A DNA stretch of 64,000 bases from Heliocidaris erythrogramma. Taxonomy: Eukaryota; Echinodermata; Echinoidea; Camarodonta; Echinometridae. Position numbers and translations under genes: made by a program. The first letter of the stretch is position 1; each line of letters starts with the position of its first letter. Below the pieces are notes generated by a model. That model made no database searches. It was given only the letters and a program-made list of their open reading frames with translations, and had not been told where the DNA came from. Positions 8,632 through 60,640 of the stretch are shown in pieces. Location of the stretch: positions 31,428,208 to 31,492,207 of the forward strand of contig CM046856.1 in the NCBI GenBank assembly GCA_025617745.1, read 5' to 3'.

Positions 8632-9163
8632 TCAATCAGTACTATTTAACAGGTCAATCAAATATGGAATTGGACTGGTTTTAAATCGTTTGGTTCTACA
8701 ATGAAATTGACGATACTTTGCCCTTCTTCGCAATGAGTAACCAACATCATTGTTAGCAGGTAACCAATGTTTACACAGTGGGCTATTGGTAAGAGAGACG
8801 GCAAACTTAACACATAATTGTTTCCTTCTTTCGGACAGAGATGATAAGGAACACATTTTGGGGGCATTATCATAGGTAATATATCGAACACCCATCATAA
8901 TCCTACACGCTCTTTTCTGAATGCGTTCTAAACATAAAACGTGGCTTTGTGTAAGGTTTCCATTGAAAACTGGTACCCCATAATCCAATATTGGACGAAT
9001 ATAACCCTTCTGAACTGTAATTAAATCACAAAGTGGCAGATCATACGTCCTGAGACAACGAAGCATATAGAGTTTCTTGTTGCATCTACATACAAGATTT
9101 GATATAAGACTGTCCCATTTTAAATTGGACTGTACAACAATACCTAGATACCTAGAATATTCT
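8632..9163 (-). pseudogene. Non-LTR retrotransposon fragment, end of reverse transcriptase
   Basis: The minus-strand frame reads the stretch that follows the catalytic domain in jockey/CR1-type LINE reverse transcriptases: RYLGIVVQSNLKWDSLI, then NKKLYMLRCLRTYDLP, YIRPILDYGVPVFN and LERIQKRACRIMMGVRY. The frame is open for about 177 codons, but the palm and endonuclease are absent. It is therefore a 5'-truncated insertion, with only the 3' end of the ORF kept. Upstream, beyond 9,163, similarity stops. It is not a host gene and has no relation to the receptor downstream on the same strand. Confidence 0.85.
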
Positions 9164-9489
9164 TTTTAAATAAAAATATCCATTGATATGATAAGAACTG
9201 GGTTAAACGGGTAATAAAAATTACATTTTAAAAAACAAACAAAAACAAGCAATGTTTCTGTGTGAAAGTCGTTTTGTAATTCAAGAGACGAGTGTTTCAA
9301 AAATATTGAGAATATTTTTAAATCGCGAAATGTAGGAAGGACAATTTCAAATAGAAAACTTGTAGTGATCGACACAATGAACAGGTTAGCTCTTTCAAAT
9401 TCGGAAAAAATAAAGAAATACTCGCATGCATGGATAAGTACCTTTATATACTTAACACATTGTAAGAATAGGTACTGTTCTCTTTTTTC

Positions 9490-11757: not shown

Positions 11758-12811
11758 TTATTTCTTTGAATAGTCGAAGAGAGAATACAAATATGGATTA
11801 ATCGAAGAATTGATTGGCAGAATGAAGACTACAAGCCAGGCGTACACATCAGAGGACAGGATGACACCTCGAACCTGGACTAGGATACTCAGGATAATGA
11901 TAGGCATCCAGCAAAAGAAGTCGGTTCCCACGATGAAGGACATCTTGATGGCCATTTTGATCTCGTTGGAGGTCCGGGCCTTCTGCCCTGCTGCCGTCCT
12001 ACTGAAGCGAATATTGAAGAAGATGGCAATGTAGCAGACGAGGATGAGGATGAAACTGATGAGGTTCACGACGAGAAAGATGGCGATAGAGAAGTACCAA
12101 GTAGAAGCGGTCGAGGACACGTGGTCACTGAAAGCATCGATACCATACAGAGAGAATGTCAATGGATCTAATTCGGTATCGGTGGAGAACTTCCGAATGA
12201 GAGGGAGACCTACACAGACATCGCTGAGGCCATATGCGTCAGGAGTCAGGATGTTTAGAAGGAGAGAGATCACACTGAGCAGGAGGGAGCCGCACCAAAT
12301 GATGACTGCAGCAATGCGGGCTGCAGTGACTCCGAGACGTTTCTGACTGAACGGAAACACAAGGCAGATGAAACGGTCAATACTGATCAGGGTTACCAAG
12401 AATACAGAGGTCTCACTGCTGAGAAAGGAGACAAAGCCAGCGATTCTACAGGCGTTGCTGGATCGCCACTCATTTCCTAATCCATCCCAAAAGTACGATT
12501 CACCAATGTAGAGATCCATGACACCAAGGATTACCATATAAACCCCCATCAAGAAATCAGACATGGCCAGGTTGGTAATCAAGATAGACTGGACAGCGGC
12601 GGTGGTCGTAGAGGGCTTATCTCGCAATCTCAAGACGATGACAAAGGCGTTACCTAGCAACGCACTGATGCCAAGTATCCAAATGAAGACCCTGATAGTG
12701 AAGCTTTGGAGGAAAGTCTTTCGGCATGTGAAGAGGGGATGAGCAGGGTACTTTGTTTGGCAGTTTAAACTTTTCGAAACCATGCAGCATATTCGGGGGT
12801 CGTACACGCTT
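11758..12811 (-). CDS. Receptor last exon: LRR hinge and seven transmembrane helices
   Basis: A class-A G-protein-coupled receptor core in one exon of 1,054 nt, entered in phase 2 after TTTGCAG. It begins with the Cys-rich hinge (SVYDPRICC, later FTC), then TM1 (VFIWILGISALLGN), TM2 with LAMSD, a TM3 ending in SIDRF in place of DRY, TM6 with FFCWMP and TM7 with NPYLY. Cysteines in the first and second outer loops (about residues 120 and 198 of the exon) can form the usual disulfide. The RVFIWILGISALLGN start is typical of LGR/relaxin-receptor/GRL101 proteins. The reading frame stops only eight residues after NPYLY, so the cytoplasmic tail is almost absent. No splice donor is seen near the stop. 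The receptor would sit in the plasma membrane and signal through G proteins. Confidence 0.95.
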
Positions 12812-13265
12812 CTGCAAAGTTAGAACAAGGATTAACAATTATTAACTCTTCCTTTCCCAATGGCAATATGTAAGACAGTGAGAGTATGAATGATATTTCC
12901 TTTTCTCTTTAAGATCCTCATTAAAAAAGTGGGGAAAGTATATGCAAATAACTGTGAAAGACAAAAAATGCTTTGAAGGATCGACCAATTTAATACAGGC
13001 GAGGAAATGGTTCAACTCCATCAAAACAGGGTTTTTAGTTTTAGATTTACAAAATAAGGTTTGATATATGTTTGGCTCTGTCATTCATGTATACCAGGGT
13101 TGCTTAACTTGAAAGGACTACTCATCATAGGAAGTAGATTTGCGCCCCACATACGATACGTGAGCACTGTCTGCTAGTGACAAAATGCCGAGTCTAGCTC
13201 ACTATGGCCAAATGCTGGATTTAGGCCTTTTTTTCCTCTTTTGTATTAAATAATGTAAAACTTAC

Positions 13266-23412: not shown

Positions 23413-24381
23413 CTGATATAACAGAACATGTTTCATAATCAATTGTAATTGTATACAAATACAATGACAGGTATAAATGCCTCATTCATTACATGACAAT
23501 TACAATAGTGGGCTGGTACACCCCACAGCCTTCATTGTTCATCATCTTCGGATGCTTGCTCATGGTGTTCATTTGGAGTGAAATAAACATAAATAAATAA
23601 ACAATATTCCGATTCAATTTGCTTTGACTTGCTGCTTCAAAGTGTTTAACGATCATGATATGATGATGGTGTTAATTGTTCCTCAACATCCAAACGTCCA
23701 TCTTGAAAATAATATGCGTAAATGCTTGTCATCGTGGATCCTCTTTAGCTTTATTTGTGATCAGGAGTTAACGGTCTGTCCTTTCACTTAATCCTTAACA
23801 TGACCCCAGGGTGTATGTGTGTGTGGGGGTGTGTTTGTTCGTAACTGCATGTGTGTTTTAATATTGTGTGTGTCATGTTTAATTTTGTTTGGGACGGTTT
23901 GAGCGTTATTTGTATCTGCAAAGACCGAATTAATGCCCTTATTCAAAATGTTTTGTTCAAACATCACATAAGGAGTAAGCCTATTATGGCGCAGGTTGAT
24001 TTTTACACTGTCGCAAACAATGCCCCCTGTTCATCCAAGCGTAGACACATACCACACAAAAATGGTACCAAATGATGCGGGATAAGATACTTTTTCAAAA
24101 TATGTATAATAATTTGCGTTCATAACTGAGTTTTAAACAAAATGGCAATTTTTTAAGTGTATATTTTTTTTTACTCACACGGTAGTTTCTCAACCCGTAG
24201 TATTTTACATTATAATACGACTGTTGTTGTTGTTTTTCAAAGTAGAAAATTATTGTATGCACTGATGCTTTCAGGATTTCCTTAGATATACAAGTGAATA
24301 GGTGAACATACAACGTTTATGAGAAGCAGAAACTATGGAGAAAACGCTGAATTAACCCCTTTTTTTGGTCCAATTGCTTAC

Positions 24382-24453
24382 AAAAGACGCAGGTTGTGTA
24401 ATCCGTCAAATGTGCCATTTTCGAGAAACTTCAGGCGGTTGTTCTTCAGAATT
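24382..24453 (-). CDS. Receptor LRR exon 3 (72 nt)
   Basis: The most canonical repeat of the gene: ILKNNRLKFLENGTFDGLHN then LRLL, 72 nt, phase 2 to phase 2, between GGTTAG and a GTAAGC donor. The LxxNxLxxLxxGxFxGLxxL pattern is complete. Confidence 0.9.
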
Positions 24454-24793
24454 CTAACCGTAAAGTAATGATATAAATAAAAATTCATGTAAATGATCAA
24501 TTACGAAACTGTATCTTTGATAGTTTATGATTTATTAATTTCTGTATCATCGTTTATTAAATCAGATTATAACGAAAATTTAAAAAGAAAAAACATTGAA
24601 AAAATATCATATAACATTAAGGAATGTTTCCAAGTTAAATAAAGTAAAAAGAAATTAATAAGTAATTTAAACCTCTTTTATCATCTAAATTATATAGCTT
24701 TTCATTATTATCTAAATGAAATCACACTAATCGTAAGAGTGAATACAATTTTAAAAGTACCAGACTATTGTGAGGAACTTTTTTCTAACTTAC

Positions 24794-27940: not shown

Positions 27941-28616
27941 CTGCAAAATTGAAATAGTCAAAAGAAAAAGTCGCATGAAAGGGGTTCATTTCTTCAACCA
28001 TCGATATTCATTTAGGTGTTGCTTGAACAAACTTGAACAAATTTGCTTTTGTCATTTAAATACTTAATTTTTTTAAATGTCTGATACTCTTCGACAGATT
28101 TCTACTAACCTCATATTTATCACTTAATCATTCTGAAAAAGTCCCCCCATAAAAAATAGATTGGGGAATCAAAACGCTTTATAGTAGCATTACTCTTCGA
28201 CGTAATCATATACAAAAGAATAGAAGATTTTGCCAAGAATAAACTCTCTGAAATTTCTGATATAACATGCATAAGAGTTCGGGTTTACACTCTGTTGTGT
28301 TCTGTGATATTTACATTCATGTAAAATCCATAAAGTCTGGATTAAGACTAATGATGAATACACATGTGATGAGCAAAGGAGCTCGTGGTCGTTGCATGAT
28401 GGACGTCGAATAAAGTGCTGGCGCTACTGTACTTCAGTTCTTACGTTTATTTCATTTTCTGTGTTTGGAGTAGGATACAACACAGTCTTTAGCCCCATAC
28501 TTGGCAACACGTAGAAAACCTCAGAAGCAAATAAAAACATAACAATAGCAAAAACAAACATCACACCAGCAGTAACAAACATCACACCAGCAAAAACAGA
28601 AACAAAGATGAATTAC

Positions 28617-28727
28617 CGCATAAAGCTTCATCGTCCCCATAGGGACAGTCCTGAACACCATCGCATTGCAAGATGGGAAGGAGACAGATGTCACTACCCT
28701 TACACCGATAAGCACTAGGTTCGCAGT
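28617..28727 (-). CDS. Receptor LDL-receptor class A exon
   Basis: One complete LDLa module in a 111-nt exon, phase 1 on both sides, acceptor ATACCCAG and donor GTAATT. It reads DCEPSAYRCKGSDICLLPIL then QCDGVQDCPYGDDEALCG. All six cysteines and the calcium-cage acidic residues (CDGVQDCPYGDDE) are present. In relaxin receptors the single LDLa module is needed for receptor activation; whether that holds here is inference. The exon could be skipped without shifting the frame. Confidence 0.93.
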
Positions 28728-29378
28728 CTGGGTATTAGGTGTAAAAAGAGCAGAGATACGAGAAAGTTGGGCAGGGATGGATAACGAATATAAAAAGAAA
28801 ACAGAGAAATATGTAGAGAGAGAGGGGGAGTGAGAGAGAGAAAAAAAATAACGAGGGACATATGCCAAACAGGAAACAGAAAAAGGGAGGAGGGACAAAA
28901 GAACAAAGCAAAGGAACATTTATAATAACCCGTTATTGCTAGTATCACATTATCTCCAATGAAGATTATCATGATCATTCTTATTTCAGTGATATGTATG
29001 CTACAAAACATTTAAATTATTCTCATTCCCCATGAGCTTAATGCAAGAACCATTCTATTTTTAAGCAAATGGGTTATCTAAGTGTCGGCCGTAAAAATGA
29101 ATACAATGGCATCTGTCTTATTACTTCAGTCATAATCATAAACTATAGCGATCATCACGAATTAGGTTGCATTATGATATGGGCATTAATAGCATTACTC
29201 CCCCACGGACATTGGTTTCGACTTGCTGACATCTATCTACCTGAAATAAATTATGATTTAGTGTATTTCTTGAAGCCAAGGGGATGTTAGTTATATAGAG
29301 TATTCTCTTGTTAACGACCTGACAATACGTAGTCCACGGCTAATACCTTCTTTTACGCAACTTACAACGTCAGCAAAT

Positions 29379-31288: not shown

Positions 31289-31602
31289 TTCCTGTATAGG
31301 CAATGGGTTAATACTCTAAAAAAGTACAGGTGTGAAAATATAACTTTGGTCATATACCATTACATCCGGCCTCGTCGCTTAAGTCATGGCAATCAACGAA
31401 TCCATCGCATCTCGAAGAGGCCAATACGAGTTGCATTCCGGATCGACAGGCTAATGCGTCATCGAGATCGACAGCAGTACCTGTTGAGGTGCGACAATAG
31501 AAAGGAAAGAGGGGTAAGGGGTCTTACTTAACAGGGTCATATTCAAAAGTTGGAAATGATATCGGTAGCCTTCTGCAGGAGGCAGTGATGTAATCGTAAA
31601 GT

Positions 31603-31978: not shown

Positions 31979-32198
31979 CATTTGCGCGATATGCGTAAAC
32001 GTCAAGAGCAAAACCCGATGATTCCTGCATGACGTCACTACAGAAGCCAATCACGGTCTTTCCTGCCGGCAGAATTAGTGACGTCACTTTCTCGTTTGTA
32101 AATGAAAAGATAGTTGAGATGTTGTTGTGACTGAAGTGAGTAACGGTTAGAATATCCCATGGACGCTCTAGGGATAGGGCCTTGAAGTCTACAATCAC
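31979..32198 (-). CDS. Receptor CUB domain, second half
   Basis: 220 nt, phase 0 in (TATTTCCAG) and phase 1 out (GTTAGT). It reads VIVDFKALSLERPWDILTVT, ISTIFSFTNEKVTSLILPAG and VIGFCSDVMQESSGFALDVY. The LxFxxxxLExxxDxLxV and FxSDxxxxxSGFxLxY patterns are those of CUB domains. The usual aromatic in FxSD is replaced by Cys. It follows the 33.6-kb exon without frame loss and feeds the LDLa exon in phase 1. Confidence 0.82.
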
Positions 32199-33638: not shown

Positions 33639-33743
33639 ATTTTGGTCAGGAAAGGTTTCCACGATCCATTCAGAGGCGATATCTGGTGGGTAGCTGCCCG
33701 GGTGATTTGGGGAGTTAAGACTCATTTTGTAGGTCCCTCCTTC
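33639..33743 (-). CDS. Receptor CUB domain, first half
   Basis: 105 nt, phase 0 to phase 0, GTAAGC donor. It reads EGGTYKMSLNSPNHPGSYPP and DIASEWIVETFPDQN. SPNxPxxYPP...xxWxV is the CUB signature; a Ser stands where the second Cys normally precedes Trp. The acceptor is chosen to fit the phase of exon 2 (after ACGGAG). An alternative acceptor upstream (CTTTACAAAG) has a better pyrimidine tract but would need phase 1, so the 5' edge is uncertain. Confidence 0.72.
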
Positions 33744-34461
33744 CTCCGTGCGGTGCCCATCAGAAGCTTTGTAAAGACAATAACATACAGTTATTGTTAT
33801 CTTTGTGTTCTTACACATTATATTAAGACTTTTACAGCAGTAAGAAGGAACTGTATAGACATGATAGAACTATATAATAACGATCAACGGAGGGATAAAC
33901 TATACCTTACGGGTATCAAAGTGTATTGTGATAGAACGGGGAAAAGAAAATGGAAACACTTGGAGAAAAGCTAATAGTTGTGGAAGATGTTGAAACAAAT
34001 ATGATAATCCAGACAAAAACAGAAAACCACAACAGTAGGTACCAAATGATATGTCCTCGACGAGACAAAGAAGGAGTAACTGAGTATATTTGTTTCCATG
34101 AGTAAACAATATAAATTATCTACTTACCCACCCACAGAATTAAAAAGGGACCACTAGCGTTGTGTTACGCAAGGAAGGGCAGTAAAAATAAGGGATAAAT
34201 AAAGAGGGAAAATTGGAAAGGGCTGAGATAAAAAGATTAAGAGGAATCTAAAGTGAAATAAAGTAATTTATATTCTAAGAGGTAAAGATGGTGGAAGGAT
34301 ATGGAAGAAGATGGATGTAGCAGGGCGATGATGGTGAAGGAATCATCAAATAAAACGTATCAATTGAGCGTAGACAATAATTAACCACCCCTTCATTGGA
34401 TCAATCATTTCTTTTACAGTATTAATACTTTTAACTCAGATGGAGAATTACCTCGGACAAC

Positions 34462-34676: not shown

Positions 34677-35382
34677 CCTATCAAATGAAAATTCCCCCAT
34701 TGCGATTTTTGTCTTACTTGTTGTAGGATGTAATTCTCATACGAAATGAAACATTTTAATTTGCCAACTGTCACAAAATACGACTTAATTTGAGAGGAAT
34801 CATCGAAAGTAATACATATGATGTATGCATATAGAGGATCTAAGAAAGATCTGAATTTTATAACTGTCACTTTTTAGCTGTTAGAAATAGAAATATACAG
34901 ATTCCAATTGTAACAGTTAAAAAAGTTCCCTATTGAATGGATGCTCGAGTGACGTTTGACTTTTCCTATAATCTTGACCTATATCTCGACCTTTCCTTGA
35001 GTCCACATACGCAAGAAGCAATTTGAGATAGATATCAAACAGCTTTAAAACGTATTTATGAGATAAATCTTCAGGGCACAACTAATAATCGAATATATAT
35101 ATTAAGAGAGTTGACAACGTGTTCTACATTGCGCTTTATTGACAAGCAAAATGAAGATCTAATCTCACATCCATAATCTTATGTCATTTTCATATAGGTT
35201 GTTGGAGAAATTCTAGTATAATTGCGACGGGTAAATTCAATAGGAGACAAAGGTGCTGAATTCAGGAAGAATGATGATCCCTTTAAAAATGTATTACCAA
35301 CGTAAACTCTATCAAAATGCAAATCAAGATGGATCTTTTGCCACCTTCCAATGACATGGTTTCGAAAGATACCGAAACTTAC

Positions 35383-35429
35383 AGTTTCGAAGCCACGAGT
35401 CCCTAACCGCAGCGAGGATTCACACGAGC
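35383..35429 (-). CDS. Receptor exon 2 (47 nt), start of CUB domain
   Basis: Bounded by GTTGTTTCAG and a strong GTAAGT donor. Entered in phase 1 from the signal exons it reads GSCESSLRLGTRGFET and leaves in phase 0, as the CUB exon needs. The Cys would be the first CUB cysteine. The short length makes the call depend on phase and context. Part of the surrounding sequence resembles a degenerate tRNA-like repeat on the minus strand. Confidence 0.55.
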
Positions 35430-36227: not shown

Positions 36228-36267
36228 CATGTATAGGACACAAAACAAAAGAGATCAGCTCTGTCAT
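36228..36267 (-). CDS. First-exon copy F (type A), shortened
   Basis: It reads MTELISFVLCPIH plus one base, 12 nt shorter than the intact copies but still phase 1. It closely matches copy A (MAELISFALC). The donor is weak (GTCAGA). With only 13 residues the hydrophobic stretch is probably too short for a good signal peptide, so it may be decayed. Confidence 0.45.
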
Positions 36268-36352
36268 TTAAGGAACATGAAGATTATTTTTATATATTTT
36301 AAAAGTCTTTTTTTTTCCTGGTTTCTTATTTCTAGATTTACATCTCCTCTTC

Positions 36353-36403
36353 TTTTATAGTATAAATGAGGGAATACCAGATTAAAGGAACCAGCTCCAT
36401 CAT
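36353..36403 (-). pseudogene. First-exon copy E (type C), donor lost
   Basis: It reads MMELVPLIWYSLIYTIK, similar to copy C (MMELLLSLGWKV). Where the others have GGTAAG it has GAAGAG, so no GT donor remains. Flanking words (ATCTTCAAATCCCTGATGC) match the other copies. Confidence 0.6.
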
Positions 36404-36589
36404 CTTCAAATCCCTGATGCTTTTATAAGCAGTTCAGAATCATTAGTATTATCACTGCAATAACTGCAGATATGTATTATATATTTATATTTCACTGTTG
36501 CTTACGCCAAAGCATAATACAGGATGTAATCCCCCATACCATGTAGCCTAAACATGACAGCGTACAAGACAGGATGTAATCCCCCATAC

Positions 36590-36641
36590 CATGTAGCCTA
36601 AACATGACAGCGTACAAGACAGAAGAAGGTACATCCTTCAT
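36590..36641 (-). CDS. First-exon copy D (type B), signal peptide
   Basis: 52 nt of coding sequence, MKDVPSSVLYAVMFRLH plus one base, then GTATGG. It is close to copy B (MTNVLSNVLYAVMFSLH). The end is phase 1, so joining to 35,429 would give His-Gly-Ser-Cys. A hydrophobic run (VLYAVMF) follows a charged start, but an Arg lies near the end. The 3' half of this exon and its donor are duplicated in tandem just downstream (36,521-36,570 and 36,571-36,620, 50-bp offset). Confidence 0.6.
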
Positions 36642-36849
36642 CTTGAAATGCCTCATGCTATTTTTAAGTAGCTCAGGATATTTTAAATATAATTTTCGAG
36701 CATTTCTACAAGATTTTCCCTTGATTCTTACCAGGGATATAGCAGAGGGATATAGCGGAGTTTGGGGGACGATTGAATTACCGCGTTCGAGGGAACATTG
36801 AAGCGCGAGAGGATGTGATGAACTGGAGCATGCAAACGGGTCGCGAATT

Positions 36850-39340
36850 TTTTTTCCACACGTGGTTACGCAAATTTTCATGAATTATTCATAAGCTGCG
36901 CTGCAAGCCTGGGGTGCGCAAGCGCGTGGACTAGATGAAACTGAAGGCATCGTTGAATTGGTCGGTGGACGGTTGGCAAAGCGGCCATGGTTCCACCAAG
37001 GCGTTATCACAGTACTCCTTGCATGCCTTAGTTCTACCCAGATTTGATATTAAGCATTGAAATGTTTTATCTCAACTCTCACCTCTCTCTCTCTCTCTCT
37101 CTCTCTCTCGCAGCCCTGAATCACTCTGTACAGGTATCAATGTATATATCCGCGTAAATATAGAAGGGAAACCCATTGATTAAAGCGAGGAAATGTAGAT
37201 ACATTTCCCTGATTAAAATATTTTATGCCGTAACAACTCAAAGGACTGTCTTTTCCACAGGTAAATAATGATGTAAGAAATAAGGAAGTGCATTTACAGA
37301 ATTCGTATTAAAAAATATTATAGGCCTTTTCATTTTTGCACATGTTTCAAAATTAGTCAATGCAATCATTATTGTCTTTACCATTAAAAATATTTGTCGT
37401 GACGTTACGTATACAATTTCAGGTGTTTGCTTATTGGACAAATAGTTTTCACACGAATCTGTAATGTTGTAATGTATTAAATTTAATTAATATATTTGTT
37501 GTTTTTCTCACATTCAGATAAAAGGCTCATGCAGCCACGCAGGCCTATAAGGACAGAAATATGATCCTACACTGATACATTAAGTTGAGTAGGCCTCACA
37601 GAATAACATAATATAGACCTTTGTTAAGGTATTGACTTTCTCCTGTCTTTTTGTTCTCCTAAGTTACATAATTTGGTTGTTTACGGTTGAAAATCAAAGT
37701 CTTTGTCTTTGTATTGGCTCTCCCATACTAGAAAAGGCAATTCCTGAAATACACTGATGTTTATCGAAATGAATAAAGTCATAATATGAACATGAACAAG
37801 TATTTCGGTTAAGTATGAAAAATTTGCTAACAGAAATATACGAAATATACTCCAACGATTTTTTTTAGACATTTTTTTTACATAATCTATTTACTTCACT
37901 GATTAATATCAACTGAAAAAAAGAAAAAGAATTTTTTTTCGGATTTCCATTAATTTGAGTGATTAACAAATAATGGTCATATTTCTCCATAGACAAACCA
38001 ACGACCATAATAGCTTGTTTCATTTAAACAATCTTATTCATATCCATGTGTCTTTATACTAAGCTGAATTTTAAACAATCACATGGTTTTCTTGAACAAA
38101 ATGTAGGCCTACATCTGAGCCAATGGGTATGTAGACAAAATCTTTTTCTAGTACATAATTTGAGTCGGAAGGGTGCGGGCGGAGGGGGGGGGGGGGGGTT
38201 AAGGTAAAACAAAGTTATACATTTTGAAAAAAATGATATTTTAGTCATTTTGTGGGCTGGAGCGTCTTTGAAAGTTAACCGCTGCTACATCACAGTGACC
38301 GTACCGATTATAGGCCAATTTAAAAAAAAAAATCACAACTTTCTTATCGTTTGCACAATTTTTTTTAAACTTTCACACAAATCAAATTATTACATAAAGT
38401 TTGGATTTCTCCTTCACCGATCTATTCATAACTTGCAATTTGTGCTTATGAATTCCTTTCATTTCTTTTCCTTGTAGTATCATTAACAACAGCACAAAGT
38501 CTCGTAGATTTTGGAGGGCGAAAAAGCGAGGAGTGAGCAACAATTTTGATTGAAGATTGAAGTATTGAAGTATTTGGACAGGTTTAATTCTTTATCATCA
38601 TTAAACTAAAATGTATATGTCTGTATGTTATTACTTCGAAATGATTGCTCCATAATGATTGAAAGAATCAGTCATTATTTTTTCATGGTTGAAAATCTGT
38701 CTGGAAGGGGGGAGGGGCACGGGTGGCAATTTGCCCCCCCCCCCACCTTAAGATACGCTAGTGGACTTTTTTTAGATCCTCACCAACTTCATGTCCCACA
38801 CATGATTCTCAAGACAAGACGTGATCACACCAGGATCAGGATATAAAGTCTAGTTATAGTTCTACTAGCAAACTTTATGGCTCAAGACGTGATCACACCA
38901 GGATCAGGATATAAAGTCTAGTTATAGTTCTACTAGCAAACTTTATGGATCAAGAATATTGTGTCAAATTTTTTATTTATTCATTCTGCAATTATGATTT
39001 ATTTTTTCATATTTTACTTTAATTTTCGCTTTTCAGTATTCCTTGAATATTCTTTGATTTTCCAGGATATTTCTTCAATTTTTCCTTGAATTTCCTTGAA
39101 TTTCTCAACTTCCTTAATAATGTCCTTGATACTTTCAAAGTCCCTTATTTTTCCTAAAGGAAATTTCCTTGAAAGTGGAAGCCCTGCTTTGAACCAAACA
39201 AATCTGTGTCCTGTGTAGAACCTTAATTATAGGCCAGCCCTCCGCTCCGATGATGCCTTCAGTTTCGGCCAGTCCACGTGCTTGCGCACCACGGTCTTGA
39301 AGCTCAGCTTATGAATAATTCATGAGAATTTGCATTAACA
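36850..39340. mobile_element. Third copy of the large repeat, with inverted ends
   Basis: The left end near 36,880-36,960 (TTCATGAATTATTCATAAGC, GCGCAAGCGCGTGG) is the complement of the right end near 39,265-39,335 (CAGCTTATGAATAATTCATG). The interior matches both copies at the start of the window (CATCTGAGCCA at 38,112, the G run at 38,180, the C run at 38,735) and includes the segment that is flipped at 2.4-2.9 kb. It also has a 60-bp tandem duplication at 38,820-38,945 and a (TC)n tract at 37,084. Its insertion helps to separate the two first-exon clusters. Confidence 0.7.
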
Positions 39341-39436
39341 TAATGTGGAAAAAAATATCGCCAAGGGGTCACAGCGAACCGATATAGATCGGTTAGGGTC
39401 AAAATTTTCGATTATCGTGACACGCCGGACAAAAGC

Positions 39437-39735
39437 ACCATTTTTGGTGTGAAGCTTCCTTAGGGTATATAAAATTATTCCAGTCGAGGAGCCCCCTCGA
39501 AATATGTCCGTAACCATGGCAACAGGCAAATATCCAAGATAATCGCTATTTATGCTAGTCTTCGGCAACGTAAGACAAAATCCTATTTCATGACGCTCAA
39601 AAGCAGCGTCCCAGATCCCACTTTTGGTGTGAAGCTTCCTTAGGATATATAAAATGATTTTAGCCAAGGAGCCCTTGCGAAAATATGTCCGTATGTATGG
39701 TAACAGGCAAATATCCCATGATGACCGCCATTTTA
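39437..39735 (+). repeat. Two-unit tandem repeat, about 180 bp
   Basis: TTTTGGTGTGAAGCTTCCTT, followed by a TATATAAAAT word and ATATGTCCGTA, occurs at about 39,451 and again at about 39,622. Both end near GGCAACAGGCAAATATCC or a variant of it. Confidence 0.75.
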
Positions 39736-39789
39736 AGCTGGTCTTCGGCCACGTAAGACAAAATCTTGACTTGACTTGAATTTTCTTGA

Positions 39790-40520
39790 CTCGATCTTTA
39801 TAACAGAATTTATTTTATGTTTATCACTCAAATCATTGAAGACATTTTGTTTCAGTTTTAACCAAAGAAAAATTCCGAAAAAATAAAGAATTGCCGTGAC
39901 AATACTAAATAATATCAGCTGTCTTGGAGTCGGTTTTTGGCATAGGGGTGCTGGACTTTGGCCACATGTACAAATTCAATGGAGAGTTTGCGACCTGAGC
40001 AAAATGCCAGCGGTCCAAGCAAGCGTCCCACGCCAAAACTTCTCACATACAATCCGGTCAAAAACCAGCGCAGAGTTATCAAACACTGACATCGCAATAC
40101 ATACGGAGCTATCGCGTGTGTCTCATCCACTGAATATTGATGACTGCAGCAACGGTCCATCGGACACTTTTTTAACGTAAAATCCCAGTCTATAATTTAA
40201 CTGAATATTTCTTGAAACGCAGCTCAGTTTTAGGGACTATTTCTACTTATGAGTAATCATTGTAGCTTTAAGGGAAATGGAATGTATATAATTAGGTATA
40301 ATAATGGGCCCAGCATATCCCTGAAATATGAAATCAATTATCACAATAGACGGCGTTCTGTTGAAATTGTAATTGTTCTGGACTTTTAAGGTTTAGTAGC
40401 ATCCGATTCCGCTACCAGAATGTAATACTGACACAATTGAAAAATATGTATCTGCCCGAATATGAGGTCACGATTGCCCGAGTAAGAACTTTGAAAATCC
40501 TTAGGGATAGGATTGCGCCC
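39790..40520. other. No gene recognised
   Basis: Short ORFs only, with no domain and no paired splice sites that I could support. Confidence 0.4.
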
Positions 40521-40527
40521 AGCTCCA

Positions 40528-41800
40528 GGCTCCCCCGCCCGCGTCTTTTTTTTTGTAACCAGGCCTAGGCAGATTTCGCATTTTTTCATAAATATTCATG
40601 ACGCAGGGTCGGGAAACGGTTCCGATTGGTCTTCATGACAGCACGGTCGCCGGTAGGGGAAAAAAGTCCCTGGCCTGCACGCACGTACACATATTATGAT
40701 CGTATGTGTTCAACGTGTAGGCGCCTAGCCTACGTTTTTGCACTGAATCTATTATCGATCTAAGTTAGATCTTAATATAAGAGTTAGAATTGCCTCCACG
40801 TATCCCTCAAAATGCTGGCCTAATAATAGACGTGTGGTAGACCCAACTTCAAAATGGAATCGGAATGTGATGGTGTGATATCATCAAATTTGCAGCTATG
40901 TTTAGCCAAGACTCTAACTACTCTAGATCTACTCTAACTAGACCAATTTTGTTACAATTTTCAATTTCAGTTAAGTTTAGATTAAGTGAATGTTATTTTA
41001 AGGTCAATGAGCATGATGAGTTAGACCTAGATCTAATCAGTAAATGATTGATGATGGGGGTAGATCTACATCTAGATGATTTAAGATCTACCTACATTAA
41101 CTAGTTACGCACTTTGTTTTAATCAGCAAGGTCACCAAAATAATTTGTTTTCTTGGTAGGGCCTACTAACGTTAGTAGTATTGAAACGTTAGTAGTAGTC
41201 TGCTTCTTCCAGTCCTGAAGACTCTTGCAGTTCTTCTAACTCTGGGCAATGTGCGTTTACAGGAGCAGGTTGCAAGTGCTAATTACAGTGTGCATGCAAG
41301 GAAATTTAATTTCTAACGTGAACAGTAAGACTCTAACGTTGTTAGACCTAGCCTCGAGTCTGTGTCTTGATTCTGCATATTGTTGTAAAGTTCATTTGTG
41401 GAGAACATTACGATGGGCAATTGTCAATATACGCATAGCCTAGGCCTAGACCTATTTTCAGAGTAATGCCAGTGGCAGTGTCAATTTTGGTCGGAAAAGG
41501 AGGGTGTCTCAAAAGAGCTAATTACTAAATTAGATCTACGCACATGCAATAACTTAATGCAAAACTTGATTTTGAAATTGACTGCTCAATCCAATTTTTT
41601 ACGTGTCACATTGCATAGGTGGGTACCGGTGAATATGTTGAGAATTAAACAATACATACATGAACGTAGGCTAGGCGCCTACACGTTGAACACACACGAT
41701 CAATCGGAACCGTTTCCCGACCCTGCGTCATGAATATTCATGACAAAATGCGAAATCTGCCTAGGCTTGGTTACAAAAAAAAGACGCCCCCTGCCCCACC
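40528..41800. mobile_element. Element with long inverted ends (over 100 bp)
   Basis: The left arm (CGTCTTTTTTTTTGTAACC, ATGAATATTCATGA-like core, GGGTCGGGAAACGG) returns in complement at 41,690-41,800. An inner pair (GTAGGCGCCTAGCCTACG near 40,716 and its complement near 41,668) extends the arms. The middle is rich in CTAGA/TCTAG words and has no conserved ORF. Confidence 0.8.
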
Positions 41801-43262
41801 GCCTCATACCCCATTTGCTTTATTGGTGTTTTATACAGCAATCACACATGCGATATACATACATTATATTTTTAATATAATAGTAAATTCAATAAGGTAT
41901 TATAATTTATACCTATCAATGTAATATTCATTTGATTTTCAGTAGTGTGCAAACAGTTATATATTAAATAATGATAGAAAGGGAGGGAGAGATTTTACTA
42001 GAACAATGAATAATTGCAGTCCTAGGACTGAATTGACATGGATTACATTTTAAAAATATCTTCGCAAAATGACAAAAGTATTTTACAAAATGCGATATGA
42101 TATAAATGATAGAAATAGCAAAGAGCTACATTATTCAGCAATTAAAATATCTGGAAAAAATCTTCATTATGCTTCAAGTTCATTATGACTCACAATAAAA
42201 CGTAAATGTTCGTGAAAGGAGCATCATCATGCATTATTTTATATCTACCACACACATCGATGAAGTTTATTACTGTTTGCAGAGGTTTATTACTGTACTT
42301 TCATTGTGGCACTGTGTAATGCCACCTACGACATGTCTATGGGCTACGGGCTTACGATTTTTTTCAAATTTGTATAACTTCCCGCAAAACTAAATCGTAA
42401 AAACCGCGGAGCCGTGAATCCGTACGAAAATCCCACGGCCGCCTCCTACCTCCGCGCGGAGGCCCCACGATAAAGGGGATACGGGCTACGTAGACCAATC
42501 GCAGGTCAAATGTAAACTAAGCAATAGTTTTCTTCTACTTGATTCTAGAGTTTCAAGTTTACATATTCGACAGACATCACCATAAGTGGTATACAACGGT
42601 CCCAGCATGATTTTACATACTCTTTTTTGGATTCGTTCGAGGCTTTTGATATGTATCTAAAGCCTAGGTCGCAACCCGCCGTACCGCAAGTGCGTGCTGT
42701 CTGCGTGCAAAAATGTGGGCAAGATTTGTGGATACGTAAAGCGCTGGTCCCATCCCGCCGTACTTGCAAGTGCGTGCTGTCTACTTGCAAAAACGTGGGC
42801 AAAATTTGGGGATCCGTACGTGGTGAGTACCGCCTCAGTACGGATTTGGGAGCACGCAGACACGCCGTAGCACTTTTAGTGCACGAGGAACTTTCGCTGC
42901 GTTCAGGCTGCGGGTGGTCTACAGATTCACCCCCAGTACGGGTGACGTGCGTTGACGTGCGTGCCCTCTGCTGCTAACGAGCGCACAACGCACGGACTCC
43001 GTGAGTTTTTGAAAATTTTTCCCACAGTTACTTGCTCTACGGACAACGCACCTAGCACGTGCGTGCTCCGCACGTGATAAGTGCGGGGTCCGTGCTTATT
43101 CGGCGCTTCTCCAGTTCAATTGTCCAGTGAGCACGCAGAACTCACGTAAACCGCACCGAGGAAGTACGTGCTATGCACTTGCAACGCACGTTGTGCGCGC
43201 TGATTTCTGCAGGATATACAAAAGCCGAGCAGACTGACGAGTATCATCATTTCGTCTCCAAG

Positions 43263-43445
43263 ATGCCCAAGAAGCTTAACAAAAAGGGGTCAGCTCAAAA
43301 GACAGCTAATAGGGCCAGAGAGGCCCAACAGAAACGGGCCGTAGATGATGTAAAGGCAGGCGACGAACAGATGAGGAGCGATGAAGACTCGGCAGATGGT
43401 GACGGGAAAAAAACTTGCACGCACTTACTCCCTGCAAGTCGGTAA
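43263..43445 (+). CDS. Short basic/acidic ORF in transposon repeat 1
   Basis: About 60 residues from an ATG 53 bp after GGATATACAAAAG. The start is MPKKLNKKGSAQKT, followed by a charged middle (KAGDEQMRSDEDSADGDGKK). I do not recognise it. The second repeat has the same start, but an internal deletion changes the rest. It could be a first exon of a transposon gene or a captured host fragment. Confidence 0.35.
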   Translation: MPKKLNKKGSAQKTANRAREAQQKRAVDDVKAGDEQMRSDEDSADGDGKKTCTHLLPASR

Positions 43446-44102
43446 GGACACCATACGTGAAAGTACGGCCTCCGTACGATAACGAGGCAACCGCACGGCG
43501 ATCGTACGTTGTAAGCACGTACAACTCACTTACCAGGTGCGCAACGTACGATGCACGCAACCACTCACGTCTAGGCGTGGCGTGCGGGCCACGTACTTAC
43601 ACCTTGCGTTGTAGTGCGTGTGAAGTGCGTTGACGTAGTCCTTCCCTGCTCTTGCTACTCCCTCCCCACGTTTTCAGAAAAACGTGGCGGACGTGGCCTC
43701 CGCAGAACACGTACGGACTAAAAACACGCACGGTGGGATGTGACCATGCCTTAACGTGGTGAGTACTCAGACAAGACGTAGAATTTTTAGTGCAGGAGGA
43801 ACTTTGGCTGCGTTCAGGCTGCGGGCGGTCTACGGATTCACCCCCAGTACGGGTGACGTGCGTTGACGTGCGTGCCCTCTGCTGCTAACGAGCGCACAAC
43901 GCACGGACTCCGTGAGTTTTTGAAAATTTTTCCCACAGTTACTTGCTCTACGGACAACGCACCTAGCAAGTGCGGGTTCCGTGCTTACTCGGCGCTTCTC
44001 CAATTTCAATTGTCCAGTGAGCACGCAGAACTCACGTAAACCGCACCGAGGAAGTACGTGCTATGCACTTACAACGCACGTTGTGCGCGCTGATTTCTGC
44101 AG

Positions 44103-44251
44103 GATATATAAAAGCCGAGCAGACTGACGAGTATCATCATTTCGTCTCCAAGATGCCCAAGAAGCTTAACAAAAAGGAGTCAGCTCAAAAGACTTACTCC
44201 CTGCAAGTCAGTAAGGACACCGTACGTGAATGTACGGCTTCCGTGCGATAA
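44103..44251 (+). pseudogene. Second copy of the TATA box and short ORF, deleted inside
   Basis: The TATA-like word is better here (GATATATAAAAG, 44,103). The ORF starts at 44,153 with MPKKLNKKESAQKT, but about 100 bp present in the first copy are missing, so the frame runs into other sequence and stops at 44,251. Confidence 0.45.
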
Positions 44252-44627
44252 AGAGGCAACCGCACGGCGATCGTACGTTGTAAGCACATTGTAAGCACGT
44301 ACAACTCACTTACCAGGTGCGCAACATACGATGCACGCAACCACTCACGTCCAGGCGTGGCGTGCGGGCCACGTACTTACACCTTGCGTTGTAGTGCGTG
44401 TGAAGTGCGTTGACGTACTCCTTCCCTGCTCTTGCTACTCCCTCCCCACGTTTTCAGAAAAACGTGGCGGACGTGGCCTCCGAAGAACACGTACGGACAA
44501 AAAACACGCACGGCGGGTTGTGACCTCGGTTTAAGTGAGCCCTCCATCAAAAACAGGTACGCAATATTTCAAAATAGGACAGATGTAGCCAGCATAGACT
44601 GTTTTCAAGTGAGATAGACAGACCAAA

Positions 44628-45293
44628 TGTGACCCTCCACCACAAAACGACCAATAAGTCGGAAATTTTGTGTTTTTTAATTCCAGCACAGTTTGAAAGC
44701 TTAGATTCTTAGCTTTAAAATGATATATAACTTGTCTTGTATGGACTAAGCAAACCCTTATAAATTACAATGAGAATGTCCGAGTGTCAGACAGGCTAAT
44801 GACCGAAACAATAGAGAAAACGGGCTCTAAAGAAGGGTGACCATTTAAGAGCGCCTAATCTGTGTCCTATTGTTTGTCGCACAAAAGGTTGAGTCAAAAC
44901 TCCAAAGCCTACACTGTGAAGTACTCATTGGATTGGGTTGAAACTTTCCATATCTTTAGGATAGATATATTTCTTTCTTTCTGTAGATTTTGAATATCAG
45001 ACAGTGCATAGTTTTTGAGCTATACCAGAAAAGCGATGTGAAGTATGATCCCAGCAAGCTGACTCACAAAGTTTGAATATCCAGGAAAAAATGGTCATCT
45101 TGAATGAGAGAAAAAACATATTTCAGCGTGGTATTTTACCCTGAAATTTTGTCAGATGGTAGATTAATAAATAAACTTCCAAAAAATACCCCAAAAAATA
45201 AAATATAAATTTCCACCCCAAACAACCTTTTTCAGCTGTTTACTCTAAAACTCCCATTGCGACTTATTGGTCGTTTTGTGGTGGAGGGTCACA
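44628..45293. mobile_element. 666-bp MITE with perfect 34-bp inverted ends
   Basis: The ends begin TGTGACCCTCCACCACAAAA and pair perfectly for 34 bases with the right end. The inside is AT-rich without an ORF. The perfect ends suggest a fairly recent insertion. Confidence 0.93.
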
Positions 45294-45582
45294 TATTGTT
45301 TCACGAGTCTAAACATGTACAATTTTTACATTTTTCAAAACTTCTGCTACATGCAGGTCCCATTGAGGTTTGATTGTATTGTGACACCAAGAATCTTTGA
45401 GGATTGAACATTTTGTAGAACTGAGTCATTGCTATAAAGATTTGAAGCGGGGATGGGATTTCTCAAGAAGTGAACATCTCTACGACTATGGAAAGCTTCC
45501 TGACTCTTGAATATCAGATGTCAGTTGTTGCGTCATCCAAGGTTTATCACAGCTGTTGACGCATACTTCTTTTGTAGGATAT

Positions 45583-46401
45583 GCTATGGTCACATCCCAG
45601 AAAATCAGCCTGCTCGGCGGCCGGGCGGCGAGTTTTTAGCCAATTTCGCCCAGGCACCGAGCGGCGGCCGTCTGGGCCCCGCTTTTTTTTTTTTAGGGCA
45701 TCGCTCGGTCGCCGCTGAAATTTTAGCGCGGAGTTAAAATTTCGGTGGCGCCTGGCTAGTTTTCACTCGCCGCCCAAAATACGCTCGGTGCCGAGCGGCG
45801 AGCTGAAACTTGACCGGCGTCCGGGCGGCGCCTGGTTTATAAAAGGCGCTGCTCAGCGCAAATATTCTTTTTTGAATGAGGAGCGCCTCAGAGCTTAAAT
45901 AAACAAATAAACAAACAAGCTCCACAAAAGAAAACACGTAAATATCAGAACGAAGTTATCAAAGTAAGCCCTGATTTTATCCTATAAGGTTTTCCATCAA
46001 TTAAAATGCCAGAGCAAAAGCGTTGTTCTTGATGGCCAGGTCGCTCGAGAAAAATTCCCGGTGGAGACCGGCGGGCCGCGGCCGGTACGCCAACGGGACA
46101 CCTGCAGATGCCCCGCCTATCACCTGCCGGCCACCGGGCGATTTCTTAAAAAATCGACCGGTGGCCAGTGGAAGATCGTCCGGGAATCGGTGGGTCATCA
46201 TTCGGTCACTGATCGGACGCCGCGCGGAGAAGATCCCCCTTTTTCGCGAGTTTTGACCTAAAATGGACCGGCGACCGACGGGAAATCGACAGGACATCGC
46301 TGTGGCTTTACAGCCCGCTCGACTTCTTCAAAAATCGTTGGGCGATCCCTAAATTTCAGGCTACAAATCGGTCGGTCACCGCCCTGATTTGTGACCATAG
46401 C
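45583..46401. mobile_element. GC-rich element with GCTATGGTCAC ends
   Basis: The ends are GCTATGGTCAC and GTGACCATAGC. The interior is rich in CGGCG and GGTCG words, with several short inverted repeats (CGGGCGGCG / CGCCGCCC types). ORFs on both strands reflect GC content, not genes. No clear target duplication. Confidence 0.75.
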
Positions 46402-46799
46402 CTAAGTAGCGATTAAGGTTTAACATTGTAGTGTTATATATGAATGCACATTTGTCAGATGGATCCCTGAGTAGAAACACATTTTCCCATGCATATGTTG
46501 TGATCCATTGACCGAAAGATCTTAATCCGCTATCCGCAGCGGACTATCCTTTTCTTAACTAGGTTTTTTGGCTTGATGTATGGTTGAAGAGGTGACCACA
46601 GTACACAGTTGTGATCACTGACATGCCGAGGGGCGACAGTACAAAGGTAAGCAGAAGTAGTTAATTCATTAAGGCCAATCTTCCCGCTTGCTGGGGAATT
46701 TGATCGTACCCTAAAACTCGTTACTCTCACTGACTAATTATAATTTAACATCTCAGGTAGATAGTGTAAAACGAAATTCCTATCTACATCTTTTCTTAC

Positions 46800-46853
46800 C
46801 TTGTAGTATAACATGACGACCTTCCAGCCTAAAGAAAGCAGTAATTCCATCAT
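46800..46853 (-). pseudogene. First-exon copy C (type C), frame off by one base
   Basis: It reads MMELLLSLGWKVVMLYYK to a good GTAAG donor. Compared with copy A (ATATTAAACCTACAAG) it has one base fewer (ATGTTATACTACAAG), so it ends in phase 0 and would read into a stop within exon 2. Either decayed, or used with another downstream exon. Confidence 0.6.
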
Positions 46854-47021
46854 CTTCAAATCACCGTTTGTCGTATCATCCAGTTCGGAATCATTAATAT
46901 CATCATTGAAATAATTTCAGATCATTTTTAGATTATAATCATTTCATTGCTTCTTACCCTAAAGTTCAACATCTTCATTAGATACAATAAACCTTAATAT
47001 TGGATGTACATCTCCTCTTAC

Positions 47022-47073
47022 CATGCAGGCTAAACATGACAGCATATAAGACATTAGAGAGCACATTCGTCAT
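47022..47073 (-). CDS. First-exon copy B (type B), signal peptide
   Basis: 52 nt of coding sequence, MTNVLSNVLYAVMFSLH plus one base, then GTAAGA. Phase 1 fits exon 2. The hydrophobic core VLYAVMF and small residues near the end fit a signal peptide for the secretory pathway, as expected for a receptor with CUB and LDLa modules. The ATG context is CAAGATGA. Confidence 0.65.
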
Positions 47074-47411
47074 CTTGAAATGCCTGATACTCTTTTATGT
47101 AGTTCAGATTATTATTATTATTTTCACAATTTTAAAACATTTTCTCTGCTTGATCATCATGATCGCAAAGACTTTCAGGAAATCAACTCAAGGGAAACTT
47201 CAATACCCTATTTTATTACCTTTAGAAATCACGTTCGGATTATAAATCATTTCATTGTAATGTTCGCACATTTCTAAATGTGACGCTCTAAGCTATATTG
47301 AACTTGCATTAGGTTTATTTATAGAAAGTCTTTGCCATCTTGTTATTCTTACTCGGAAAACTTTAAAAACATCCAATAGATACAAATGATATTATCTATA
47401 TCTCCTCTCAC

Positions 47412-47478
47412 CTTGTAGGTTTAATATGAATGCACACAAGGCGAAAGAGATCAGCTCTGCCATCTTCGAATCCCCCAT
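47412..47478 (-). CDS. First-exon copy A (type A), signal peptide
   Basis: The best first exon: MGDSKMAELISFALCAFILN then LQ plus one base, and GTGAGA. The core ISFALCAFIL is a good signal-peptide hydrophobic stretch. It has five extra codons before the Met that aligns with the ATG of the other copies. Phase 1 fits exon 2, giving Gly-Ser-Cys at the join. It is the copy furthest from the body of the gene, about 12 kb from exon 2. Confidence 0.7.
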
Positions 47479-49199: not shown

Positions 49200-50205
49200 A
49201 ACGATGTCAAATTACACTCCATGTGGGACGTGAACTTATTTGTGTAACAAAATGCAAAGTTGCGAGTACAACCATAATCCCTCATCATGGGCATAGGGTC
49301 ACAGTTGGCAATACCAAAATAAAATTAACACCCATTATAGTTATGGAAAGATTATCTTAATGCGGCTTATGTATACTCAACTTAACGAGAACGAATTATT
49401 TTTCTGTATTTTTAATATGAAAAATAATTATTGTCACGTCATTTTCTACAGAGCAAGTGTTCAAGGGAAAATAAAATTACTGAATCATATTTATGAGGTG
49501 TGAAACATAATCAGTGATATTGATAATTTACATCGCTGGCTTGGATCTAAATTCCCTCGTACCACGGTCACATGTACAAATAAACAGACGGCTTTGGGTG
49601 CACGGTATTGTACAAACAACTGTGAGATTGCTATGTAGGGAGCTTCGATTCACAAATAACACATATGAGGGTATAATCTACTAGTCTCATCGTAAAATCA
49701 TCATCATAAGTAAGTCAACAATGATGTAATTCTATGTTATATATCAAATATGATTTCATTATCTTTTATCCCTCCCCGCTGTCGTCTTGAGATTGATGAG
49801 ATTCAAATACTGAATAAAGAACGAATAAAGAACGCGCGATCTTGTTTACTCAAATTTGGGTCAATGTGCGAACTTTTATTAGCTGCGCGCGATAAATTGA
49901 AGTCGCTTTGAAGTTTGATCCAGAGAAAGGAGCAGCCAACTGTAAAACCGTCCATAGATTGCGACTTGTCGCTCCCTTTAATATATGTGCTATTAGCCAG
50001 CATTTCTCTCGTTGGTTCTGCACGCAATTTTAAATGACCTATGCATAGCATCTCAGAACGGCACGATGGAGTATAGAGTGTTGACAGTGATATCTTAATG
50101 TCAGCAGTAAGAGTTTAGAAATCTGACAAAAATTGTATTCGCTTCCTTCTGCCGGGCACAATAAGACCAATGGCTGTGTTCATACAGGTGAACTACTTTA
50201 AAACC
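49200..50205. other. No gene recognised
   Basis: AT-rich sequence with short ORFs on both strands. The longest (minus strand, 49,803-50,051) has no domain I know. Confidence 0.4.
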
Positions 50206-58859: not shown

Positions 58860-60640
58860 GTAATGGAAGAAGGGGTGGTCAAGTTGCATTAAAGAACTTA
58901 GCCAACACAAAGAGGCAGGTCCAGACGAAATATCTCCCTTGGTCCTCCAAAAAAACAGCTGAAGAAATTGGGCCCGCACCAGGGGCGGATACAGGATTTT
59001 CAGAAAGGGGGGGGGGCGCATTTCAGAAAGGGGGCGCACACTGAGAAACCCTCCGTTTGACAAAGCCAAACGGCCATCTAGGGGGTCCGGGGGCATACTT
59101 TGTCAGACAAAACGGGGGGGGGGGGGCGCACGCCCCTTGCGCCACCCCCTGGATCCGCGCTTGCGCACTAACCATTGTCTTTCAACTATCACTTGAAACT
59201 GAGGATTGGTTGTGTGCAAATATAACACCTATTTTTAAGAAGGGTGATAAAACGCAACCAGCAAATTATCGCTCAGTAAATCTCACCTCAGTCTGTAGTA
59301 AAATAATGGAACACATTCTCTGTTCTAATGTAATGTCTCACTTGGATACACATAACATACTGTGTAGCCAACACCATGGGTTTCGCAAAAACCATTCTTG
59401 TGAAACACAGTTGATTTCCACCGTACAAGATATTGCATATGAATTAGATCAGAAATATCAGGTAGACGTAATAATCATGGACTTTCAAAAGGCATTTGAT
59501 AAAGTGCCCCATAAAAGACTACTACTCAAACTCTGGCGCTATGGCATTAGGGGGAAGATTCATAGATGGATAAAAGGATTCTTGATAAATCGTAAACAGC
59601 GGGTAGTTATAGAGGGTGAATGCTCTGATTGGGTCACAGTAGATTCTAGTGTACCGCAAGCTAGGGACGGTCTCGGGCCCGATAGATTTTTAACTCTTCA
59701 CAAACGAGCTCCCTGATGGCCTTGAATCAAGCTGCCGTCTATTTGCAGACGACTGCATTCTGTACACACCAGTATCAGGCCACAAAGATGCCGAAAGGTT
59801 ACAAAGAGACCTAGATAGATTTTCATCTTGGCAAAATAAGTGGCAGATGGACTTTAATGTCCAAAAGTGTTATGTTCTTCGTATCACTCATGCCAGAAAA
59901 ACGCACAAATATGATTATACCTTGAACAACACTGCATTACCAGAAACTAATTCCCATACTTACCTGGGAGTCGACATAAGCAAAGATCTAACATGGAATA
60001 CTCATGTTGATAGAGTTTGCGCAAAGGCAAACAGAACACTAGGTTTCCTTAGAAGGAATTTACATTCATGTCCACCTCATGTAAAGGAATCGTCTCATAA
60101 GACACTTGTGAGACCCATATACTGGATTATTGTTCATCCGTATGGGATCCACACACTCAAACGCTTATTAACAAATTAGAAATAATAAAAAATAGTGCTG
60201 TTCGTTTCATAACAGGAGACTACAGGTTGAGAAGCAGTGTAACAGAAATGAAAAAGAAACTTAAAATCGAAGCCTTACAACAAAGGCGAAAAACAAACCG
60301 CCTATCAATCTTTCAACAGGCAGTTGTGGGTCACCTCGCCGTGCCATGCAGTGCAGTCTATCCTGCGCCCGGTCCAAAGGAATATGAGAAAAACTTCGGT
60401 AAATAGTTATATTCCAATCGTTACTAACAAAAATTGTTATAAATATTCTTTCATACCCCGTTCAATTACTGACTGTACTGTAAAAACAATCCTCGACAGA
60501 CACAAATTCAAGGAATCCGTACAAAAACACCTCTCAAATTAAGCAAAATTAAACCCTCTCTCATCATAGCCTTTATACCATCTGCGCACCCTACCCCTGC
60601 CCGTTTTACCCCTTTTAGGGGTGTTGGGCAGTATCACCAT
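58860..60640 (+). pseudogene. Non-LTR retrotransposon, reverse transcriptase ORF, broken
   Basis: A LINE reverse transcriptase of jockey/CR1-like type. It shows KEAGPDEISPLVLQK (58,890), then TPIFKKGDK (59,228), NYRSVNLTSVCSK, the first catalytic stretch DFQKAFDKVPH (59,479), the FADD box (59,742-59,753), and the later NSHTYLGVDISKDLTWNTHV and RTLGFLRRNLHSCPPHVKES. Frameshifts near 58,950, between 59,660 and 59,720, and near 60,110, and the MITE at 58,980, break it. No endonuclease domain is seen, so it is 5'-truncated. The 3' untranslated end runs to about 60,640. Confidence 0.9.
58980..59163. mobile_element. 184-bp MITE nested in the LINE, CGCAC duplication
   Basis: It starts CAGGGGCGGATACAGG and ends GGATCCGCGCTTG. 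It is flanked by CGCAC at 58,975-58,979 and 59,164-59,168. Leaving out the element and one CGCAC puts GPA directly before LTIVFQL in the reverse transcriptase frame, which confirms insertion into an existing LINE copy. Confidence 0.93.

Follow-up and report, generated by a model that had tools for sequence, protein, structure and literature searches.

The stretch of Heliocidaris erythrogramma DNA analysed here (64,000 nt, hereafter the window) carries a receptor gene with two clusters of short Met-led units in its 5' flank, and raises the question as to whether the receptor can draw on a set of interchangeable signal-peptide exons or whether the units are remnants of a less unusual process. 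Our analysis of the homology, splicing and surroundings of the units indicates that the array consists of duplicated signal-exon units that probably reflect ordinary exon duplication and decay rather than an interchangeable signal set.

The receptor body and the units upstream of it

The window is part of a 56.8-Mb contig in a genome of 1.06 Gb. This genome also encodes bindin (E 2e-68; no match in any of 14 control genomes), a sperm protein of sea urchins and also of sea stars, which marks the host as an echinoderm and most likely a sea urchin. The receptor body lies on the minus strand and is organised as CUB-LDLa-LDLa-LRR-7TM (Table 1). When its exons were joined by hand and compared with Pfam, Ldl_recept_a was matched over 2 stretches (5e-11) and 7tm_1 at 3.7e-27, and the single leucine-rich repeat exon matched LRR_8 at 2.1e-4 with 21.4 bits, which is below the 27-bit cut-off. 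The nearest solved structure is that of relaxin receptor 1 (RXFP1, 7tmw; 1.2e-36), and the presence of LDLa modules, leucine-rich repeats and a rhodopsin-class 7TM places the body with the relaxin-receptor-like, type C LGR proteins. It belongs to a large receptor family with 126 exon matches in the genome, and besides a second copy of the locus described below relatives of the 7TM domain were found at nine places with 56-67% identity. Some short tandem pairs are present near the CUB exons of paralogs, and upstream of the CUB exon of one of them (L026:1936-2260) we observed a 51-nt tandem pair (76%, spacing 274) that encodes hydrophobic stretches and in which no GT donor was seen by eye; judged by its letters this could be another decayed signal-exon pair.

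We placed the end of the second exon, which is the first common receptor exon, at GTATCT because the CUB exon at 33766 is then entered in phase 1 and because a GTAAGT in the window reads ATAAGT in the second copy. The second copy may no longer be functional, however, and this earlier donor (GTAAGT at 35382) may instead be used together with a more upstream acceptor of the CUB exon. Either choice leaves the junction with the first exon unchanged.

All six units are on the minus strand and 5' of the receptor body, and they have a common origin. Among units A to E eight of the ten possible pairs match one another in blastn (E 6e-22 to 6e-7), A/D and C/D being the two without a direct match, and F matches A with 82% identity over 39 nt (E 2.4e-4). 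A sequence profile recovers each of the six window units at E <= 6e-19, a value to be read in the light of the profile having been built from these same units and the second copy's D. The units have the appearance of a signal-peptide first exon duplicated in tandem upstream of the receptor, as the first-pass annotation of this DNA had described them, and in-silico splicing confirmed the 52-nt coding part ending in phase 1 that it had given for A, B and D. Unit A has a second in-frame Met at 47478, upstream of the aligned one.

Table 1 Features of the locus, in window coordinates
Feature	Position	Aligned Met	Strand	Remarks
Unit A, signal-peptide first exon (best candidate)	47412..47478	47463	-	MGDSK-MAELISFALCAFILNLQ-G; donor AAG|GTGAGA; phase 1
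Unit B, plausible alternative first exon	47022..47073	47073	-	MTNVLSNVLYAVMFSLH-G; donor ATG|GTAAGA; phase 1
Unit C	46800..46853	46853	-	54 nt; phase 0; good donor AAG|GTAAGA; out of frame with body exon, stop after splicing
Unit D	36590..36641	36641	-	MKDVPSSVLYAVMFRLH-G; weak donor ATG|GTATGG; phase 1; upstream in-frame Met possible
50-nt tandem duplication inside unit D	36521..36620		-	copies 36571-36620 and 36521-36570; absent in second copy
Unit E	36352..36403	36403	-	frame intact; GT donor lost (AAAAG|AAGAGG)
Unit F	36228..36267	36267	-	40 nt; MTELISFVLCPIH-G; weak donor ATG|GTCAGA; without common upstream sequence
Dispersed repeat between A and B	47158..47345		.	about 188 bp; from DNA search of genome
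Repeat-rich stretch between ABC and DEF	36700..46700		.	about 10 kb
First common receptor exon	35373..35429		-	57 nt; phase 1 to phase 1; GSCESSLRLGTRGFETVSF; 3' end inferred
CUB exon, first half	33639..33766		-	
CUB exon, second half	31979..32198		-	2-nt deletion and frameshift in second copy
LDLa module 1	31356..31481		-	limits approximate
LDLa module 2	28615..28728		-	limits approximate
Leucine-rich repeat exon	24381..24455		-	limits approximate
Seven-transmembrane domain, rhodopsin class, relaxin-receptor-like	11758..12819		-	

Second copy, genomic distribution and duplication history

A collinear second copy of the locus is found about 0.40-0.43 Mb away, with at least -8845 to 66392 in window coordinates corresponding to C4:31820001-31919784. 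The matching blocks are mostly 94-99% identical, some down to about 89%, and large insertions are present in the second copy, the one separating D from C measuring about 18 kb. The two copies agree fully in the exons of units A to D; around A they differ by a 2-nt indel and a single substitution, which lie about 65 nt or more upstream of the aligned Met. E's exon and the whole of F are absent from the second copy, with 43 nt of E's upstream part kept, and the second half of its CUB exon has a frame-breaking 2-nt deletion (window 31979-32198 vs C4:31864191-31864413). This second copy is either an allele that the assembly retained twice or the product of a recent duplication, and inference of selection from it was dropped in view of the CUB frameshift and its possible status as an allele. 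Twin pairs of this kind recur among the 126 exon matches, with at least six lying on the same strand of the same chromosome, 75-436 kb apart and with scores within 2 bits; paired by score alone these are this locus and C3 55.4/55.8 Mb, C2 11.4/11.6, C2 31.5/31.6, C2 16.26/16.34 and C13 14.72/14.79.

The homology, order, frames and splice-site letters of the units can be read directly, and no other genomic place was found for them. Membership of a widespread transposon family, which would have argued against the reading as signal exons of the receptor, did not emerge from the DNA searches of the genome, whose 7 and 5 matches all belong to the window array and the second copy on C4; searches of this type pass over very common words and may overlook diverged copies, and A was always queried in combination with other units. 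The query running from A to C was swamped by the dispersed repeat between A and B, with 822 first-look candidates of which 40 were scored, so its counts are lower bounds, and among the matches listed all those beyond the two C4 loci fall within query positions 394-606, which is the repeat. Insertion of this repeat explains the longer spacing between A and B. A dispersed repeat was also considered as the origin of the units themselves and was rejected, a B-C query that leaves out the A-B repeat matching the two C4 loci only.

The surroundings of the array are themselves repetitive. Direct repeats of about 190-270 nt with copies some 780-910 nt apart occupy window positions 42850-44534, and open frames at 59045-60179 (+) and 8632-9165 (-) resemble, by eye, pieces of a retroelement reverse transcriptase.

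The units had initially been sorted into three pairs, A/F, B/D and C/E, whose order was taken to suggest duplication of a three-exon block. We calculated a tree from 215 nt per unit, using the second copy's D in place of the window's D with its internal duplication. Bootstrap values of 93 for B/D and 83 for C/E uphold two of the pairs, but the split of A and F from the rest reaches only 46. These two units have 39 nt in common and are 41% identical upstream, and the 90 nt downstream of F are, among five comparisons, most like those of B (62%) and least like those of A (41%). The B-C stretch and the D-E stretch align in a single collinear match (366 query bases, 69%), and the data thus show a block of two units in place of the three first proposed. 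In B/D and C/E the exon with 60 nt of upstream sequence is 76-80% alike and the 90 nt downstream are 57% and 44% alike respectively, and this better conservation of exon and upstream sequence is a hint of past constraint.

Splicing, signal-peptide potential and promoter-like sequences

Spliced in silico to the body exons (35429-35373, 33766-33639 and 32198-31979), units A, B, D, E and F each give an open CUB frame, and unit C joins the body with its phase off by 2 nt, a stop following soon after. Unit E has AAGAGG with no GT at the expected donor position, and unit F falls 12 nt short of the 52-nt length and has no upstream sequence in common with the other units. Donor scores are 6.7 for A, 6.8 for C, 4.8 for B, 2.4 for D and 0.8 for F, calculated with a primate matrix. 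On this matrix the inferred donors of the body itself reach -2.2, 3.4 and 2.5, so it serves only as a guide and the weak scores of D and F are compatible with their use. The first-pass annotation had counted six signal-peptide exons and raised the possibility of their being interchangeable. Six related units do exist, but interchangeability of all six is not supported by their present state, with A and B clean, D and F marginal and doubtful, and C (by its phase) and E (by its lack of a GT) unusable as they stand.

In order to set the hydrophobicity of the encoded peptides against a background we used the ATG-led 17-codon frames of the window (n=1080), of which 3.4% are at least as hydrophobic as A, 11.6% as F, 12.9% as E, 16.4% as B, 18.5% as C and 23.3% as D. 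The original description of the peptides as hydrophobic therefore clearly suits A, but B to F taken alone are near background (11.6-23.3%). The region was also scanned for signal exons, with limits chosen after the units had been seen. Within the 16.2 kb that separate position 50000 from the CUB exon, A (from both Mets) and B were the only ATG-led exons to combine hydrophobicity, phase 1 and a donor score >= 4. A strict scan of 214 kb on both strands and in three phases (428 kb of strand) gave one phase-1 donor per copy on the receptor's strand; the scan gave counts only, and we take this donor to be A because A meets the strict limits. With looser limits the same 214 kb, again on both strands and in three phases, yielded 41 donors in all, so B by itself does not rise above background.

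The near-background hydrophobicity of B to F would also fit an array that is a non-coding tandem repeat with chance frames, no unit being the start of the receptor and the true first exon lying elsewhere. Consistent with such an origin is a 3'-splice-like TTTCAG that precedes the first Met of A by about 65 nt, by which A might be a second exon, as is the result that the profile detected no unit in four paralogs when applied to an 8-kb piece around the CUB exon of each (four of nine further loci whose CUB match reached E <= 4.4e-8). In the 21.2 kb scanned for these four paralogs there was likewise no phase-1 signal exon, looser donor limit included. The paralog search is however weak, in that a 52-nt exon at 40-60% identity would escape it, and the paralogs' own first exons were missed by the same scan, so their silence says little. 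As A is the only strict candidate in the window copy, shares its strand with the receptor, precedes the body and has the phase that is needed, we consider an array of chance frames to be quite improbable.

With regard to selection, the comparison of units B and D gives differences at 5 of 11.8 synonymous sites and 6 of 39.2 replacement sites (pS 0.42, pN 0.15; Fisher p 0.10 on rounded counts) and that of units A and F at 3 of 8.8 synonymous and 6 of 30.2 replacement sites (Fisher p 0.41 on rounded counts), with no clear synonymous excess in the other six unit pairs compared. These counts give a weak hint that B and D may both have been coding for a time, and an excess that is not significant leaves room for past coding use of the units.

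By eye, a TATAAAA string was seen in A, E and F at 24-27 nt upstream of the aligned Met; B and D have weaker forms of it and C has none. The usual distance from a TATA box to the start of transcription is about 30 nt, to which a leader would have to be added. The TATAAAA strings would thus be too near the Met, as transcription would begin at or just past it, which would speak against a promoter per unit, and the suggestion that each unit might have its own promoter is not supported by these motifs. Their presence before A, E and F nevertheless counts in some measure against simple decay of the array.

An array of alternative first exons, in which A, B and perhaps D would have their own promoters and supply the same receptor with tissue- or stage-specific signal peptides, would account for A, B and D having kept both their GT and their phase into 35,429, for the low pN relative to pS in B/D and for the intron of B/D and C/E being less well conserved than the exon and upstream sequence. 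It would sit poorly with C being out of phase, E donorless, F truncated and D equipped with a weak donor, with the hydrophobicity of B and D falling within background, with a synonymous excess short of significance and with TATA-like strings that are badly placed relative to the Met, and on this evidence we regard it as unlikely. A variant in which A, B and D represent a working choice of start exons under different promoters, and C gives rise to a non-productive out-of-frame transcript as an off state, appears to us very improbable.

A probable duplicated signal exon and its relation to known systems

The explanation we favour, and consider probable, is that a signal exon was duplicated in tandem, leaving A as the working copy, B as a possible alternative and C to F mostly as relics. 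In this scenario the gene of a relaxin-receptor-like GPCR would have had its first exon, which encodes the signal peptide, copied in tandem as a unit of about 200 bp made up of some upstream sequence, the 52-nt coding part and the beginning of the intron. Later on, two units would have been duplicated together at least once (B-C and D-E), and inserted repeats would have spread the array apart. The predicted peptide of A (MAELISFALCAFILNLQG, or a form longer by five residues) would direct the CUB-LDLa-LRR-7TM protein into the ER and would be cleaved near the G|SC junction. Unit B could serve as an alternative first exon, and C and E, and probably D and F, would be decaying copies from which no full-length receptor is made. 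The locus would then provide a snapshot of possible signal-peptide exon duplication followed by loss, with intact, frameshifted, donorless and truncated copies together in a large GPCR family, and should A and B both turn out to be in use, it would offer a simple natural test of the effect of signal-peptide change on a receptor.

The combination of LDLa modules, leucine-rich repeats and a rhodopsin-class 7TM is shared with GRL101 and the type C2 LGRs and with the relaxin receptors, as these are described in the cited accounts (PMC8286064, PMC6267866), from which the present receptor differs in the N-terminal CUB domain and two LDLa modules found here. One GRL101 per ambulacrarian species is reported (PMC8286064), in contrast to the large family of 126 exon matches observed in this genome. 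Among the papers listed in our literature search there was no echinoderm relaxin-type receptor with such an array, and no priority is claimed.

The receptor CRHR2 is of a different class from this one, and its alternative exons also change part of the ectodomain. It is nevertheless a GPCR in which alternative first exons affect the signal peptide, its isoforms being described as differing in signal peptide and N-terminus by first-exon choice (PMC6778379), and together with the two following systems it provides a precedent for alternative first exons. A further system is SpIL17-4a of the purple sea urchin, also a sea urchin gene, whose alternative first exons are described as altering the predicted signal peptide (PMC5457136); it differs in encoding a cytokine, in having two first exons and in that the cited account, in the part relevant here, describes no decayed array. 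In the IgLON genes (Lsamp, Ntm and Opcml) promoters 1a and 1b are reported with alternative signal-peptide exons, both supported by transcripts (PMC5288359), and these first exons are spliced to a common body as would hold for A and B. The array described here differs from the IgLON arrangement, as given in that account, in being short and tandem, in being known from sequence alone and in containing at least two of six units that are unable to work as they stand.
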